Source of the DNA: Leptolyngbya sp. FACHB-261
Lineage (GTDB): Bacteria; Cyanobacteriota; Cyanobacteriia; FACHB-261
Length of the DNA: 64,000 nucleotides
Reading direction: 5' to 3'
Assembly: GCF_014696065.1 (NCBI RefSeq)
Contig: NZ_JACJPL010000018.1
Coordinates: forward strand, 310,001 to 374,000
The notes below the pieces were generated by a model, which ran no database searches, was not told the origin of the DNA, and was given only the letters and a program-made list of their open reading frames with translations. The translations under genes were made by a program, and so were the position numbers. This document shows positions 45,975 to 54,021 of this stretch, piece by piece; positions within the stretch are counted from its first letter, which is position 1; each line of letters begins with the position of its first letter.

Positions 45975-46060
45975 AATCCAGAGATCTGGTGAAGTTTTAC
46001 AGCATAACGAGTTTGCGAAAATTGAGAATTGATTTGAGTCTCCAGTTGGCTACGAACCAC

Positions 46061-47263
46061 CTAACTCACTTTAGTCCAGCGCGGAACGTAATCGAATAGC
46101 CACTTAAACTGCTGATCAGCAAGCCAAGTCGGAGTCAATTTATAGATCCAGTTGCGGATAAAACAGGCGATTGCATTCTCTGCCTGTCCGAGTTGACCCA
46201 CTTGACGGGAGGTGGTGAAGACACGATTAATGCGATCGCAGCGGCTTGCTTCAAACTGTCGTAGCAACGATGGAACTGTCTCCGCTTCATGACTTACGAT
46301 AAGCTGTTTGACCAGTTCAAAGGCATCTTCGATAGCCATACAGCCGCCTTGACCCAAGTTGGGCTGCACAGGATGAGCGGCATCGCCAATCAGCGTGACT
46401 CGTCCTCTACCCCAGGTTTGTCCCAACGGTTCGCGATCATAGATGTCATCGCGGTAGATAGGCTGAGCGCTCAGGGCATCGAGAATGGCTGGTACTGGGT
46501 TGGCATAGCTCGAAAAGCGCGATCGCAAGGCATTCAATGCACCGCCTGCCAATTCATCAGTGCCGCCAGCAGGGGTATTGACGAAGGCATAGAACGAAAA
46601 ACGACCAGAGCCAACATCAAAATAGCCAAAGCGATCGCCCTGCCCCCAATATTCTGACCAACTGTACCGCTCATCCAGCGGTAGTCCAGCTGCCTCAAAA
46701 TATCCCCGCCAGCAGCATGTACCGCTGTAGATGGGCCGTTCCAATTGCTCTTTTTCCTGCAACTGCGCCCGCACACTGGAATACAGCCCATCAGCACCGA
46801 CTAAGACACTTCCTTCTGCAATGCTGCCGTTCTGGAAGAACACCCGCACAGTGTCTTGACTCTCCTCAAAGTTCTCAAAGACACATCCCGTTTTTACCGT
46901 TCCTTCTGGTAGCGCATCGTAGAGGATTTGCTGCAATTCCGGTCGCAGTAAACAAATTCCCAGGTTGTCTGCTTGCACGAATTTTGGCGAATTGAGGTAG
47001 AGCAGTTCTCCATTTTTGTTAAAGAAGCCACCCTCTCGAATCGTGCCGCCATGCTGGTAGAAGCGATCGTAAAGTTGCCCGTCCCAAAGCAGTTGATAAA
47101 CCCGCATGGCATTCCGCTGAATGAAAATACCACCCGGTCCTGACAGCATTTCAGGTAATGTCCGCTTTTCATAGACTTCCACTGGGATGCTTGCATCAAG
47201 GCACACACGCGCTAGGGTCAATCCGCCAATTCCGCCGCCAATGACAATTATCTTTCGGCTCAA
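46061..47263 (-). CDS. FAD-dependent monooxygenase (zeaxanthin-epoxidase/PHBH-like)
   Basis: 400 residues, another class A flavoprotein. N-terminal IIVIGGGIGGLTLARV, DG motif SVLVGADGLYSSVR, GD motif GRVTLIGDAAHPVQPNLGQGG, where the last is close to salicylate hydroxylase- and zeaxanthin-epoxidase-like enzymes. There is no chloroplast-type FHA domain. It is the upstream gene of the two-gene operon. Aromatic or terpenoid hydroxylation are both possible. Confidence 0.8.
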   Translation of the reverse strand: MSRKIIVIGGGIGGLTLARVCLDASIPVEVYEKRTLPEMLSGPGGIFIQRNAMRVYQLLWDGQLYDRFYQHGGTIREGGFFNKNGELLYLNSPKFVQADNLGICLLRPELQQILYDALPEGTVKTGCVFENFEESQDTVRVFFQNGSIAEGSVLVGADGLYSSVRAQLQEKEQLERPIYSGTCCWRGYFEAAGLPLDERYSWSEYWGQGDRFGYFDVGSGRFSFYAFVNTPAGGTDELAGGALNALRSRFSSYANPVPAILDALSAQPIYRDDIYDREPLGQTWGRGRVTLIGDAAHPVQPNLGQGGCMAIEDAFELVKQLIVSHEAETVPSLLRQFEASRCDRINRVFTTSRQVGQLGQAENAIACFIRNWIYKLTPTWLADQQFKWLFDYVPRWTKVS

Positions 47264-47483
47264 TTCTCAGTCTCCTTAAAAATAGTCTTTGGAGTGATGT
47301 ACGTAGCTTCGACGCTTTATAAACAGAGTGGGCTTCCTATTTCATTTGCTAGCTATGTTAGGGTTCTCATAGCCTTCGAGCAGTCATTATCGCTGATTAA
47401 CGATGGTAGCCTTCCTCTAGGAACATGGAGCAGGGTCAAGGCACAGCCCAGTAAAAGGTTATCAGGGGCTCCCTGAGGCATCA

Positions 47484-47717
47484 GTGCCTGAGATCTGCGG
47501 CTGGCAGTTGGAGATTATCAAACGAGACGAGCCCGGTTTCGTGTTACTGCCTAAGCGCTGGGTGGTGGAGAGGACCTTTGGTTGGTTAGGACGCTATCGC
47601 CGCTTAAGCAAGGATTACGAGTACCTACCGCAGATGAGTGAAGCGATGGTTTATGCAGCCAGCGTTCGACTCATGCTGCGTCGTCTCACTCCCTCTACAA
47701 ATATTCTTTATAAATAA
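47484..47717 (+). pseudogene. IS5-type transposase, C-terminal remnant
   Basis: About 70 residues with the end of an IS5-type DDE transposase: [20 protein letters not shown] and [17 protein letters not shown], the catalytic Glu being that of VERTF. The N-terminal part is missing here; its counterpart is at 44580-44684. The stop at 47715 lies two bases before the next reading frame. Confidence 0.9.
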
Positions 47718-47718
47718 G

Positions 47719-47856
47719 ATGAGTGTTCAGGATGATATGGGATTGCAAGAGGGTGTTTCCCCGGTGGCTGGAGATTTCCCGCGACTAGTCACAGTAGGGG
47801 AAGCCTCCGTCCGCGCCACTTATCTGTTCTTAGTGGAATGCTCTTGGTTGCAGTAA
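47719..47856 (+). pseudogene. 5' fragment of a YjaB-like acetyltransferase
   Basis: 46 codons. It is a partial duplicate of the start of the acetyltransferase at 48803: MGLQEGV, then EASVRATxLFL are shared, and the DNA is nearly the same. After VEC the copy diverges and meets a stop at 47854-47856, immediately followed by the ATG of the methyltransferase. It may act as a leader that brings ribosomes to the methyltransferase, since no clear ribosome site precedes that ATG. Confidence 0.85.
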
Positions 47857-48588
47857 ATGCCTGAAGACAAAGCCTTCTACGACAACTCAGAATTACTATC
47901 GGGTTATCTCGCACACCGGGCTCGACCCGATAACCCCAATGACACACTAGAGCGTCCGCTCTTTTTAGAACTTGCTGGTGATCTCACCAATCTGGACATT
48001 CTTGATTTAGGGTGCGGGAATGCTGCGTTTGGGAAAGAGGCTCTGTTGCAAGGGGCGCGCTCCTACACAGGCATTGAAGTCTCTCAGTCAATGGTTGACC
48101 TTGCCCGTCAAATGCTTGCAGACACCTCTGGTCAGGTTCGCCACGAAAGCATAGAAACATGGCGAGCCCAGACAGAACAAGTTGATTTGGTGTCGTCGCG
48201 GCTGGCACTGCATTATGTTGAAAATCTCGAATCTGTGTTTCAAGAAATCTATGAGGTGCTGTGTCCTGGTGGGCGGGTGATTATATCGGTCGAGCATCCT
48301 GTCATTACATCGAACTTTGAGAGCTTAGCAGAAGGTCGCCGCACGACCTGGTTGGTTAACAACTACTTCAAACCGGGTGCAAGAGTGCACCAATGGCTTG
48401 GCAATCAGGTCACGAAGTATCACCACACTTTGGAAGAGTATTTTAACCTCGTTGCAGACGCTGGACTTGAGCTAAAGCATGTGCGAGAGTCACGTCCTAA
48501 AAAGAGCTATTTTTTGAGCGAGGAAGAATATGAGCGGCGTTTACGGATTCCGCTGTTTTTATTGATCGCGGCATGTAAGCCAAGATGA
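47857..48588 (+). CDS. Class I SAM-dependent methyltransferase
   Basis: 243 residues. SAM motif I LDILDLGCGNAAFGKEAL (residues ~46-62), motif II region YTGIEVSQSMVDLA, and motif post-II LVSSRLALHYVENLESV are intact. Substrate unknown; the UbiE/Coq5-like shape is common in small-molecule methylation. Its ATG abuts the stop of the acetyltransferase fragment (TAAATG), implying translational coupling. A 90-bp hairpin repeat follows the gene. Confidence 0.85.
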   Translation: MPEDKAFYDNSELLSGYLAHRARPDNPNDTLERPLFLELAGDLTNLDILDLGCGNAAFGKEALLQGARSYTGIEVSQSMVDLARQMLADTSGQVRHESIETWRAQTEQVDLVSSRLALHYVENLESVFQEIYEVLCPGGRVIISVEHPVITSNFESLAEGRRTTWLVNNYFKPGARVHQWLGNQVTKYHHTLEEYFNLVADAGLELKHVRESRPKKSYFLSEEEYERRLRIPLFLLIAACKPR

Positions 48589-48602
48589 CTCCGGAAGCTC
48601 TT

Positions 48603-48692
48603 CATCTTTATCTGGGTCAATTTGCCCAAAAGAAAAGTCCGCCGAAGTGGACTGACTGACAGAAACATGGCAGTAGTTTTGGGCCAATGTTG
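48603..48692. repeat. 90-bp repeat with hairpin, copy 1
   Basis: Same unit as 49446-49535, about 87 percent the same by eye. It contains AGTCCGC-CGAA-GTGGACT at 48636-48653 (one G-T pair) and ends TTGGGCCAATGTTG. It lies directly downstream of the methyltransferase. Confidence 0.9.
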
Positions 48693-48728
48693 GCTAATAC
48701 CAACTAACTTTTCAATCGCTACCCATTT

Positions 48729-48781
48729 GCCCCCTCCCGACCTTCCCTTGCTAAGGGGAGGTGCCGTAGGTGGTGGGGTTC
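48729..48781. repeat. Palindromic GGGGAGG repeat
   Basis: Single copy of the family at 38.1 and 40.8 kb, with TTCCCTTGCTAAGGGGAGG and GCCGTAGGTGGTGGGGTT. It sits between the first hairpin repeat and the acetyltransferase start. Confidence 0.8.
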
Positions 48782-48802
48782 TGCCTAGAGAATTGCTATT
48801 AG

Positions 48803-49270
48803 ATGAGTAAGCAGGGTGATATGGGATTGCAAGAGGGCGTTTACCTGGTCACTTCAGAAGATTTCCCGTGCCTAGTCGAAGTGTGGGAGGCCTCCGTCCG
48901 CGCCACGCATCTGTTCTTGATGGAAGCGGATATCCAGTTCTTCAAGCCATTGGTGCAGGATGCCCTTCCCCAGATGGCAGAACTAGCCTGTGCGCGTGAT
49001 GAGCAGGGCCAGGTTGTTGGCTTTGTTGGTGTGGTGGAGGACAAAGTTGAGATGCTATTTATCCATCCCCTGTGGCGAGGGCAAGGGGTTGGGCGACGAC
49101 TGCTGGAGCATGCGGTCAAGGCGCTTGGTGCTACCAAGGTTGATGTGAATGAGCAGAATGAACAGGCGGTGGGGTTTTATCTGCGGCTGGGGTTTGAAGT
49201 AGAAGGGCGTTCGGAGTTGGATGGCTTGGGCAAGCCGTTTCCTCTATTGCATATGCGCTTACGTGATTGA
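48803..49270 (+). CDS. GNAT acetyltransferase (YjaB-like)
   Basis: 155 residues. Acetyl-CoA P-loop RGQGVGRRLLEH (~residues 94-105) and the C-terminal DVNEQNEQAVGFYLRLGFEV, which matches E. coli YjaB-type proteins closely, including GRSELDGLGKPFPLL. Natural substrate is unknown; acetyl-CoA binding is well supported. Its 5' end is duplicated at 47719 and a 90-bp hairpin repeat follows, so the gene is part of a tandemly duplicated cassette. Confidence 0.88.
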   Translation: MSKQGDMGLQEGVYLVTSEDFPCLVEVWEASVRATHLFLMEADIQFFKPLVQDALPQMAELACARDEQGQVVGFVGVVEDKVEMLFIHPLWRGQGVGRRLLEHAVKALGATKVDVNEQNEQAVGFYLRLGFEVEGRSELDGLGKPFPLLHMRLRD

Positions 49271-49445
49271 GTGATGTGATTGAGTGATGTGATTTTGCAG
49301 AAGCGAGTAGATCTGACAAACCGATATACCCAATTGCCAAACTCAATTGCTGAACCAGAAGGCAACCCATTAAGTTGGACAGGTTATCTCCGTCCAGTTA
49401 GCTCAATTGCCATCAGACAGACCTCTTTTATTTACCTCTGCAATC

Positions 49446-49535
49446 CATCTTTATCTGGGTAAATTTTCCCAAAAGAAAAGTCCGCCGAAGCGGACTGACT
49501 CACAGAAATATGACAATAGTTTTGGGCCAATGTTG
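49446..49535. repeat. 90-bp repeat with hairpin, copy 2
   Basis: Matches 48603-48692; the hairpin here is a perfect 7-bp stem with a CGAA tetraloop (49479-49496). It lies downstream of the acetyltransferase gene, the same place as copy 1 downstream of the methyltransferase. Confidence 0.9.
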
Positions 49536-49553
49536 ACCAACAAGACCAGTAGA

Positions 49554-50075
49554 TTAGCTCTGATCTGTTTTCTGGTCCGCTTGCTTTTTACGGCCTCCTC
49601 GGCCAAAGCGACGTCCCATATCAACGACAGCAGTATTCAAACCAGCATCTTTACCGTTGGCACGAGCTGAGTTGTAAGCCATACGGGCGGCAGCATAGGC
49701 TTCGCTACCCGCTAATAAATAGGTGTCTTCGACCAGCTCTTGGAGTTGAACCAGAGACAACATAATTGGATAAAGTGACTCTACCAGATTGATGTCGCGT
49801 CGCATTTCATCGACATCTAAACAGCGAGGCATGAGTTCAGGGTTTTGGTCAGCCAGCTCAACAGCTTTATGGACAAAGGCCCGAGTTTTGTCACCCATAC
49901 GGCTCAGGCTGCGGCGGCGAGCGGGGGTTAAACCTACTAGGAAAGAAAGTATTTCACGAACATTGGTGAGATTTGACAGAACAGCTTGAAGATCGTCCGA
50001 TGGCAGCTCGGCGCTTACAAGGTTATTATTCACCCTGAATCGGTCCTTTAAAGTAATAACAGTTAGCCTAGCCAT
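49554..50075 (-). CDS. Hypothetical protein
   Basis: 173 residues, helical throughout. The ordered core LDVDEMRRDINLVESLYPIM and LVEDTYLLAGSEAYAAARMAYNSAR (~residues 85-135) recurs in uncharacterised bacterial proteins I recall, without an assigned role. A basic end (RRFGRGGRKKQADQK) could bind nucleic acid or another charged partner. There is no signal peptide. It ends next to the 90-bp repeat. Confidence 0.6.
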   Translation of the reverse strand: MARLTVITLKDRFRVNNNLVSAELPSDDLQAVLSNLTNVREILSFLVGLTPARRRSLSRMGDKTRAFVHKAVELADQNPELMPRCLDVDEMRRDINLVESLYPIMLSLVQLQELVEDTYLLAGSEAYAAARMAYNSARANGKDAGLNTAVVDMGRRFGRGGRKKQADQKTDQS

Positions 50076-50197
50076 TTAGCTTAGGCTTTTCTTTTAGTGC
50101 CCATATTTCACTGGTTACTAACTTGTGGAATTCCCTGAAAAAAGTAAGCTAGCAAATTAGCTTCTCCGAGAATTCTGGGATAAACGTTGTTTGCGAT

Positions 50198-50453
50198 GAG
50201 TACAAGTACCTTTCAACCCTCAACGAAGTTGTTTGGCATGAGTACAAGTACCTTTCAACCTTCGCCAACGTGGGTAAAAGTGTCGTCGTTCTCGGTTCAA
50301 CCTTCGCCAACGTGGGTAAAAGTGTCGTCGTTCTCGGTTCAACCTTCGCCAACGTGGGTAAAAGTGTCGTCGTTGTGGGTCAGACCCTCGTCGTCTTGGG
50401 TAAAAGTGTCGTCGTCCTGGGTTCAACCTTCAAGGACGTGGGTTCAATCCTGG
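50198..50453 (+). repeat. 42-bp tandem repeat array
   Basis: Six consecutive units with a strict 42-bp period from 50198. The two best copies, 50254-50295 and 50296-50337, are identical, the next differs at two bases; the first two and last two are degenerate. In the frame of VVVLGSTFANVGKS the later copies differ partly by synonymous changes (GTT/GTC, CTC/CTG), so the array may once have been coding (14 residues per unit), but there is no good start codon before 50270 and no ribosome site. Confidence 0.85.
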
Positions 50454-50729
50454 TTTGAGACCGGCGTGAATTCAGTGTTAATGCCTGGACTAGAGGGGGA
50501 ATGCTGAAAAGACAGCAATCAGGTTGCCTGGAGCTGAGGGAATTTGTTGAGCCTTGCTTAAGATCAATTAGCTGAGGCGGAAGCGTTTTTGCAGGGTCGC
50601 GGCCTTAGGCACCAGGAACTTGCAGACAACTAGAGCTTGGCTTGATAGTCAAACTCAGGGACATCCACTAGTCTCATCTGCAAATCCTCCCGCCCATACC
50701 GCTGCAACTCAGCATGGCAAAATCAGCGC

Positions 50730-51695
50730 ATGACTGACCACGACCGCCTGTTCAAAGAACTCCTATCCACCTTTTTCCTGGAGTTCGTAGAGTTGTTTCT
50801 ACCCGATGCAGCAGCCTTCCTGGAACGCAACTCCCTCACCTTTCTCGACAAAGAACTGTTCACCGATGTCACCTCAGGCGAGCGCTACGAAGCCGACCTA
50901 GTCGTCAGAGCCCAGTTCCAAGGCGAGATCTCCTGCTTTCTGATTCATGTAGAGCACCAGGCGCAGCCGCAGAAAGATTTCGGCCAGCGCATGTTCCGAT
51001 ACTTCGCCCGATTGAGTGAGCAGTATGGGCTGCCAGTGTATCCAGTCGTGCTGTTCTCATATGACTCCCCCAAGCAGGCAGCAGCTCAGCAGCATCGGGT
51101 CGAGTTTCCTGGCTGGGTAGTGCTGGAGTTCAACTACCGGGTGATTCAGCTCAACTGACTGCCCTGGCAAGAGTTCATAACGCGACCGAACCCGATTAGC
51201 AGCGCCTTAATGGCCAAGATGAGCATGGAACGGCAAGAGCGCCCAGTGGTGAAGCTAGAGTGTCTGCGAATGCTGGCGAGTCTAGAACTAGACCCAGCGC
51301 GAACTCAACTGATCTCAGGGTTTGTAGACATGTATCTAGAGCTAGGACCAGAGGAGGAAAGGGAGTTTGAGGAGGGCCTTGGTAGGATTGAGCGAGAGCA
51401 GCAGGAGCAGGTCATGCAGATAGTCACCAGTTGGATGCGGCAAGGTCTCCAGCAGGGTCTTCAGCAGGGCCGACAAGAGGGCCAGCAAGAAGGCCGACAA
51501 CAGGAAGCCCTAACGCTGATTCTGCGCTTGCTCAACCGCCGATTGGGGGCAGTGACGCCAGAGAATCGCACAGTGATCCAGTCATTGTCAGTTGAGCACC
51601 TGGAAGACCTAGCTGAGGCGTTGCTAGATTTCTCTGACGAAGCGGATTTGCGTGACTGGTTGCGCAGTCGAGATTTGCCCCAAGAACAGGGTTAA
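50730..51695 (+). pseudogene. Rpn/PD-(D/E)XK-type nuclease broken by one stop codon
   Basis: The 5' half (50730-51158) encodes the Rpn-type core: MTDHDRLFKELLSTFFLEF, EADLVVRAQFQGE, and LIHVEHQAQPQKDFGQRMFRYFARL. It stops at TGA 51156-51158, after VIQLN. Without that stop the same frame runs on through LPWQEFITRPNPISSALMAKM to 51695, into the C-terminal Gln-rich helix (QGLQQGLQQGRQEGQQEG) and tail seen in such proteins. An Arg CGA to TGA change explains the break, so this is a recent pseudogene. The downstream part has no ribosome site of its own. Confidence 0.88.
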
Positions 51696-52425: not shown

Positions 52426-52465
52426 AGTTCTCCTAGAACTTGAATCAAGGCATAACTTCTCAAGG

Positions 52466-52720
52466 CTACGGATTTCTCAAACAACGATTCTCACCACTCT
52501 CATCGCCAAGACAATCCCCATTCGGATTCAAAATCACCACACGATTCACCGTCGGAAACTGTCGCAAAGTAGCCTCAATCGCACTCATGGCCCGTGCATC
52601 ATCGCCAATTCCATTCGAGACAACCTGCCGACAAAACCGCAGTCTCGCAGTTCTGCCAGAAATAGCCAGCGCAAAATCTCGTCTGCCTTATGAGGGGTAT
52701 CGCGCCGCACTAGCCTTATA
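52466..52720 (-). pseudogene. Decayed copy of the GerMN gene 3' end
   Basis: Residues of the GerMN protein's C-terminal part in decayed form: bases 52466-52686 match 53461-53681 almost base for base, then a ~110-bp deletion joins to a second short match (ATCGCGCCGCAC) near 52700. There is no reading frame left. It shows that the toxin-antitoxin pair lies inside a duplicated region. Confidence 0.85.
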
Positions 52721-53375: not shown

Positions 53376-53460
53376 ATCTTCTTAAATGTTGTCGAATTTT
53401 CTCTAACGAGGGTGCACTCCAAAAAGCGCTGGCACAATTGTTGCAAAGGGTTCGATATAG

Positions 53461-54021
53461 CTACGGGTTCCTCAAACAACGATTCTCACCACTCTCATCC
53501 CCAAGACAATCGCCGTTCGGATTCAAAATCACCACACGATTCACCGTCGGAAACTGTCGCAAAGTAGCCTCAATCGCACTCATGGCCCGTGCATCATCGC
53601 CAATTCCATTCGAGACAACCTGCCGACAAAACCGCAGCCTCGCAGTTCTGCCAGAAATAGCCAGCGCAAAATCTCGTCCGCAATTGGAACTTCCCTGTAA
53701 ACGCACTGCTGAACGCAGACCCTGTTGCTGTTCTCCACTCGTCGGTCCTGCAATCAGTTGCTCAACCGCAAACTGAGCCACCCTTAAACCAGGCGTATCG
53801 CGCCGCACCGGTCTTGTCTGGGTAAAGTCATTCCCCCCACTTGCGTTAGTTGGAAAGAAAACCTGCACCTGCCGCATCATTGGTACCGGCGATGGCTCAG
53901 CCTTTGCCTGCGCACTCCAATTCCCCCAACCCAAAAGCACAGCTAGCAGCAACAACCTCAGTTTCAGGTCAAACTGCCACAAGCTAGTTGATGATCCAGC
54001 AGAATTCCAATTCAGCAACAC
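53461..54021 (-). CDS. GerMN-domain secreted protein
   Basis: 186 residues. Signal peptide (core LRLLLLAVLLGWGNWSAQAKA) followed by a GerMN domain (~residues 52-175) with MRQVQVFFPTN, PVRRDTPGLRVAQFAVEQLIAGPT and NRVVILNPNGDCLGD. GerMN domains occur in cell-envelope proteins; function in cyanobacteria is not known. Its last 221 bp are duplicated at 52466. Confidence 0.85.
   Translation of the reverse strand: MLLNWNSAGSSTSLWQFDLKLRLLLLAVLLGWGNWSAQAKAEPSPVPMMRQVQVFFPTNASGGNDFTQTRPVRRDTPGLRVAQFAVEQLIAGPTSGEQQQGLRSAVRLQGSSNCGRDFALAISGRTARLRFCRQVVSNGIGDDARAMSAIEATLRQFPTVNRVVILNPNGDCLGDESGENRCLRNP

Follow-up and report, generated by a model that had tools for sequence, protein, structure and literature searches.

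Clusters of attC sites without an integrase are known as CALINs. Integrons have been reported from Cyanobacteria (PMC8618304, PMC9668308) and the functions that are abundant in cassettes include acetyltransferases (PMC7370490), while the core boxes of attC sites have been defined as RYYYAAC and GTTRRRY (PMC3053210). The locus described here, from Leptolyngbya sp. FACHB-261, resembles such cassettes and clusters in that a GNAT acetyltransferase ORF is likewise followed by an attC homolog and other attC-like sites are found in the same genome, but it differs from them in that the core boxes are decayed, there is no second attC at the gene and no integrase above the cut-off. The locus also compares closely with truncation and replacement after tandem duplication, having the same paralogous ends, an intact foreign gene between them and an IS remnant at the edge; nothing essential differs, the abutting TAAATG being a detail. 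Gene replacement within a duplicated segment, by events of ordinary kinds, is probable here, and the explanation that fits best, held with moderate confidence, is duplication of a segment that held a former cassette, followed by replacement of the left body by a methyltransferase.

The stretch of DNA analysed (64,000 nt, referred to as the window, to which the coordinates refer) belongs to a contig (C18) of a 6.9-Mb genome in 36 contigs, the assembly of which is 97.7% complete. The 5' end of a YjaB-like GNAT gene was found to be present twice, at 47714-47838 and 48798-48925, with 103 identities over 125 nt (82%) and a one-codon indel in the alignment, and a 95-nt repeat follows each of the two units (48603-48697 and 49446-49540; 86/95 positions identical, 91%). 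Similarity at both ends is far beyond chance, with alignment scores of 76 for the GNAT segments and 77 for the repeats compared with maxima of 16 and 13, respectively, in 300 shuffles. The duplicated outline of GNAT 5' end, body and repeat which was proposed in an earlier sequence-only reading is therefore real. The hairpin repeat that this reading placed after each body is indeed present twice, but it measures approximately 95 nt rather than 90 bp and its spacing is unequal, as it begins 14 nt past the methyltransferase stop in unit 1 and 175 nt past the GNAT stop in unit 2. These 175 nt, which hold an attC fossil, have no counterpart in unit 1. The two bodies are without similarity (score 11, no higher than that of shuffled sequence), and the suggestion that the body of one duplicate was replaced by an unrelated methyltransferase fits this best.

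The homology between the units starts at TTAGAT, which could mark a cassette left edge or could have arisen by chance. Unit 1 is abutted by a C-terminal fragment of an IS5-family transposase (47484-47717, plus strand; NCBIfam NF033580 and Pfam DDE matches), and a similar fragment with the same end point is found elsewhere in the genome. Between the units lies a dispersed repeat of approximately 90 nt (48694-48783), of which the genome holds about 40 further copies. This dispersed repeat was found in two other genomes (G179 and G192) as well.

The body of unit 1 is an intact gene for a class I SAM methyltransferase of 243 aa (47857-48588, plus strand). Its product passes the gathering score of Pfam Methyltransf_11 (64.3 bits vs. 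21.2) and shares with class I SAM methyltransferases (structures 3bkw and 3g5l) the same domain match and a full-length profile match, but it passes no equivalog cut-off; the cut-offs passed are at family level and do not specify a substrate. The protein is full length, with homology to its orthologs starting at its ATG, and omega values of 0.11-0.17 indicate purifying selection. Orthologs at 68-74% were found in 4/388 genomes of the cyanobacterial class, and plasmids of Nostoc carneum and Calothrix brevissima carry others (66-67%). The orthologs, those on cyanobacterial plasmids included, lie in unrelated neighbourhoods. No second close copy was found in the source genome, and the methyltransferase was not found in viral contigs. 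By these comparisons it is best described as an accessory gene of an ordinary kind that is patchily distributed. An identity as an integron cassette was considered for the methyltransferase and rejected, with no attC being found near 20 methyltransferase loci or after the gene in the window.

Directly before the methyltransferase lies the truncated GNAT of unit 1 (47719-47856, plus strand), which comprises approximately 40 homologous codons with 82% nucleotide identity to the intact 5' end, a short unrelated tail and a TAA. As the sequence-only reading had noted, the start of the methyltransferase abuts the end of this fragment, the TAA at 47854-47856 directly adjoining the ATG at 47857 (TAAATG). 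Compared with the intact copy, the fragment has an omega of 0.68, lacks one codon and is changed at W28 and H36, which are invariant in intact relatives, and because of these features it looks like a decaying remnant. The proposal that the fragment is a selected leader peptide thus found no backing in purifying selection or conservation, and no match confined to the GNAT N-terminus was seen in other genomes among the matches listed in the class search, which are the best ones, such that short N-terminal fragments could be missed. Translation of the fragment may nevertheless feed the methyltransferase start by termination and reinitiation at TAAATG; by inspection, an obvious ribosome-binding site was not seen at this start. 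A more far-reaching idea, possible but doubtful, is that the decayed cassette acts as an expression platform, with the fragment being transcribed and translated and the foreign methyltransferase being made by reinitiation at TAAATG. If this were true, the methyltransferase would have taken over signals for its expression from a former integron cassette.

Unit 2 carries an intact YjaB-like GNAT of 155 aa (48799-49270, plus strand, start codon at 48803) with TTAGAT just before it. The protein passes the equivalog cut-off of NCBIfam NF007807 (137.2 vs. 134 bits) and its closest solved structure is 2kcw, in both of which it agrees with the YjaB/PRK10514 acetyltransferase; it differs in being a cyanobacterial member with a short N-terminal extension and is a predicted acetyltransferase. 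After the gene, at 49337-49415 (plus strand), lies a fossil attC which is homologous to the attC following the orthologous GNAT of Cyanobacteria bacterium FACHB-502. The two align with a score of 67, compared with a shuffle maximum of 24 and a score of 24 at the best other place in the window. A stretch after the window GNAT is 89% identical over 46 nt to the sequence directly after the FACHB-502 GNAT, and the core of this shared stretch is single copy in each of the two genomes. Both core boxes of the fossil are decayed, reading CCAAACT and GCCATCA rather than RYYYAAC and GTTRRRY. On its own the fossil falls below the scan threshold and is recognised by homology alone, with plain primer-motif matching in the window yielding background-level scores only.

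In FACHB-502 the orthologous GNAT (76%; match at L107:1149-1595) is flanked on both sides by attC-like sites (L107:1017-1102 and 1628-1715), and it is to the second of these that the window fossil aligns. The attC element of FACHB-502 has a GTTGGAC core box and matches the gene-cassette primers HS286/HS287 (sequences from PMC2669170) at 18/23 positions at each end. Related elements are found on a Leptolyngbya plasmid, where one primer is matched at 21/23 positions, and in a further genome (G065), where the element sits after a different gene. No methyltransferase follows the GNAT and attC in FACHB-502, an observation which bears on the main rival to replacement. Under this rival, an ancestral pair of GNAT and methyltransferase was duplicated whole together with the terminator, after which the left copy lost most of its GNAT and the right copy its methyltransferase. 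Both repeated ends would then be produced by duplication and deletions alone with no incoming gene needed, and on the plasmid of Nostoc carneum the methyltransferase ortholog is indeed followed by a GNAT, although a different one. Such reciprocal loss is made less likely by FACHB-502, in which the same GNAT and attC occur without the methyltransferase: the attC common to both genomes lies within the 175 nt that follow the intact GNAT. Furthermore, no GNAT of the YjaB-like family was found near any methyltransferase ortholog and no trace of a methyltransferase was detected in unit 2. We consider reciprocal loss unlikely.

Integron sequences elsewhere in the source genome were sought with a home-made, calibrated attC scan which gave no match at a score of at least 34 in 624 kb of shuffled sequence; it replaced a first scan with weaker scoring, in which true sites and shuffled background were not separated. 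Besides the sites flanking the FACHB-502 GNAT, which were detected by this calibrated scan, at least two convincing attC-like sites were identified on another contig of the source genome (C10), among small methyltransferase and GNAT ORFs, and several on a contig of G065. The region of C10 from approximately 85861 to 92330 (L276:5862-12331 of G000:C10) holds three methyltransferases, two GNATs and a beta-lactamase-like hydrolase. Some of these small genes are separated by attC-like sites, and the run resembles a cassette array for which no integrase was detected. Multiple attC-like sites were likewise seen in G065 (L281, G065:C93), a genome with no integrase above the cut-off. In the source genome (97.7% complete), the best match to the integron integrase model TIGR02249 (8.5e-16) is below the cut-off, whereas 124/388 genomes of the class, often with several matches per genome, and 0/14 control genomes have matches above it. 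On the grounds of the attC homology, the FACHB-502 ortholog lying between attC-like sites and the attC-like sites on C10, the window GNAT is identified from sequence as a former integron cassette, and it is filed as non-functional and now immobile because both attC core boxes are decayed. The attC fossil and the cassette origin of the GNAT had gone unnoticed in the sequence-only reading.

A cassette origin raises the prospect that an integron integrase inserted the GNAT cassette twice and that unit 1 was later overwritten, which would agree with the GNAT being a former cassette and with the unit homology starting at TTAGAT, as would fit a cassette left edge. This account does not explain why the 95-bp repeat, situated outside the attC, has a second copy; it is further opposed by the lack of an attC in unit 1 and of an integrase match above the cut-off in the genome. 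We regard integrase-mediated duplication as improbable.

The 95-bp repeat itself appears to belong to the neighbouring gene. Copy 2 (49446-49540, minus strand) forms the terminator region of a converging gene at 49554-50075 (minus strand): on its minus strand, 49496-49479 reads AGTCCGC-TTCG-GCGGACT followed by TTTCTTTT, giving a 7-pair stem, a TTCG loop and a T-rich tail, and this hairpin follows the converging gene at a distance of 58 nt from its stop. The hairpin reads as the predicted intrinsic terminator of that gene, terminator-like sites also being expected by chance at a mean of 2.9 per shuffle. In copy 1 (48603-48697, 91% identical to copy 2) the stem on the minus strand has a mismatch, as expected because there is no gene there to terminate. 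Within the genome the repeat has exactly these two copies, and no further one was found in 387 other genomes of the class. It is best seen, on this evidence, as neighbouring sequence that was probably co-duplicated rather than as a cassette end. Two other identities for the repeat were tried. A mobile repeat family is ruled out by there being two copies only, and an attC by the lack of RYYYAAC/GTTRRRY core boxes, with no candidate in 48589-48720 even at a total-score threshold of zero. A scan of 46000-51000 against Rfam gave zero matches. The converging gene belongs to an unnamed multi-copy family (9 matches in the genome; 77/378 class genomes) and has no Pfam or NCBIfam match, and no synteny of GNAT, methyltransferase and converging gene was found in relatives.

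These results speak against a reusable frame, made up of the 5' segment of the GNAT and the hairpin of the 95-bp repeat, into which different bodies are placed. Two different bodies do lie between similar ends at this one locus, but the hairpin is assigned to the converging gene. A third body between such flanks was not found in the genome itself, among the matches listed for the 388 class genomes, in 36 genomes of a related order or at 92 GNAT loci of several phyla. The search of relatives' contigs covered the best 80 of 520 relatives, such that short N-terminal fragments beyond these could be missed. With no other locus with the same flanks found in these searches, and with an ordinary origin for the methyltransferase, the exchange of bodies proposed by the sequence-only reading is highly improbable and already close to refuted.

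The divergence of the two ends was used to consider whether they share a history. The GNAT ends differ at 22/125 positions and the repeats at 9/95; the coding pair seems to have diverged further than the noncoding pair, but the difference is not significant (Fisher p = 0.12), and the divergence of both ends is compatible with one duplication event. An account by two events would place the methyltransferase first beside the converging gene; the GNAT segment would have recombined in afterwards at the 95-bp element, leaving a copy of the element on either side, and the GNAT fragment would be what remains of an older, separate copy. The ages of the ends could differ in this way (18% divergence for the GNAT ends, 9% for the 95-bp copies), and in another genome (G272) a distant member of the converging-gene family is found close to a distant methyltransferase homolog, in convergent orientation. 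That neighbour, however, is only 37% identical and comes from a multi-copy family, and besides the lack of significance, one more event is needed as well as the chance adjacency of two GNAT copies of the same subfamily. Two separate events seem rather unlikely, even a little more so than reciprocal loss.

Under duplication followed by replacement, we infer an order of events as follows. A YjaB-like GNAT would have entered the cyanobacterial lineage as an integron cassette (gene and attC), settling beside the converging gene, and decay of the attC core boxes would then have fixed it in place. A segment of approximately 740 bp comprising the GNAT, attC and terminator region would have been tandemly duplicated, possibly in a single event, at a spot with an IS5 remnant and the dispersed repeat. 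The incoming methyltransferase would finally have taken the place of the left copy's sequence, attC included, between approximately GNAT codon 40 and a point just short of the terminator region. The states before duplication and before replacement are not visible because a close relative is absent from the comparison collection, in which the genus, family and order are each represented by the source genome alone. On this reading the locus would be a readable case of the fate of an integron cassette in a cyanobacterial chromosome: decay of the attC, then duplication of the gene and overwriting of one of the two copies. The one informative surprise is that the GNAT derives from an integron, itself a finding of a known kind, and the locus otherwise shows ordinary genome wear.

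Other repeats were observed nearby in the window. Tandem repeats of 42 nt which are open in frame on both strands occupy 50186-50463. Another partial duplication in the region involves a minus-strand gene at 53461-54021, part of which is repeated approximately 1 kb away (about 52465-52680 and 53460-53680), the plus-strand readings of the two copies sharing more than 60 nearly identical residues.
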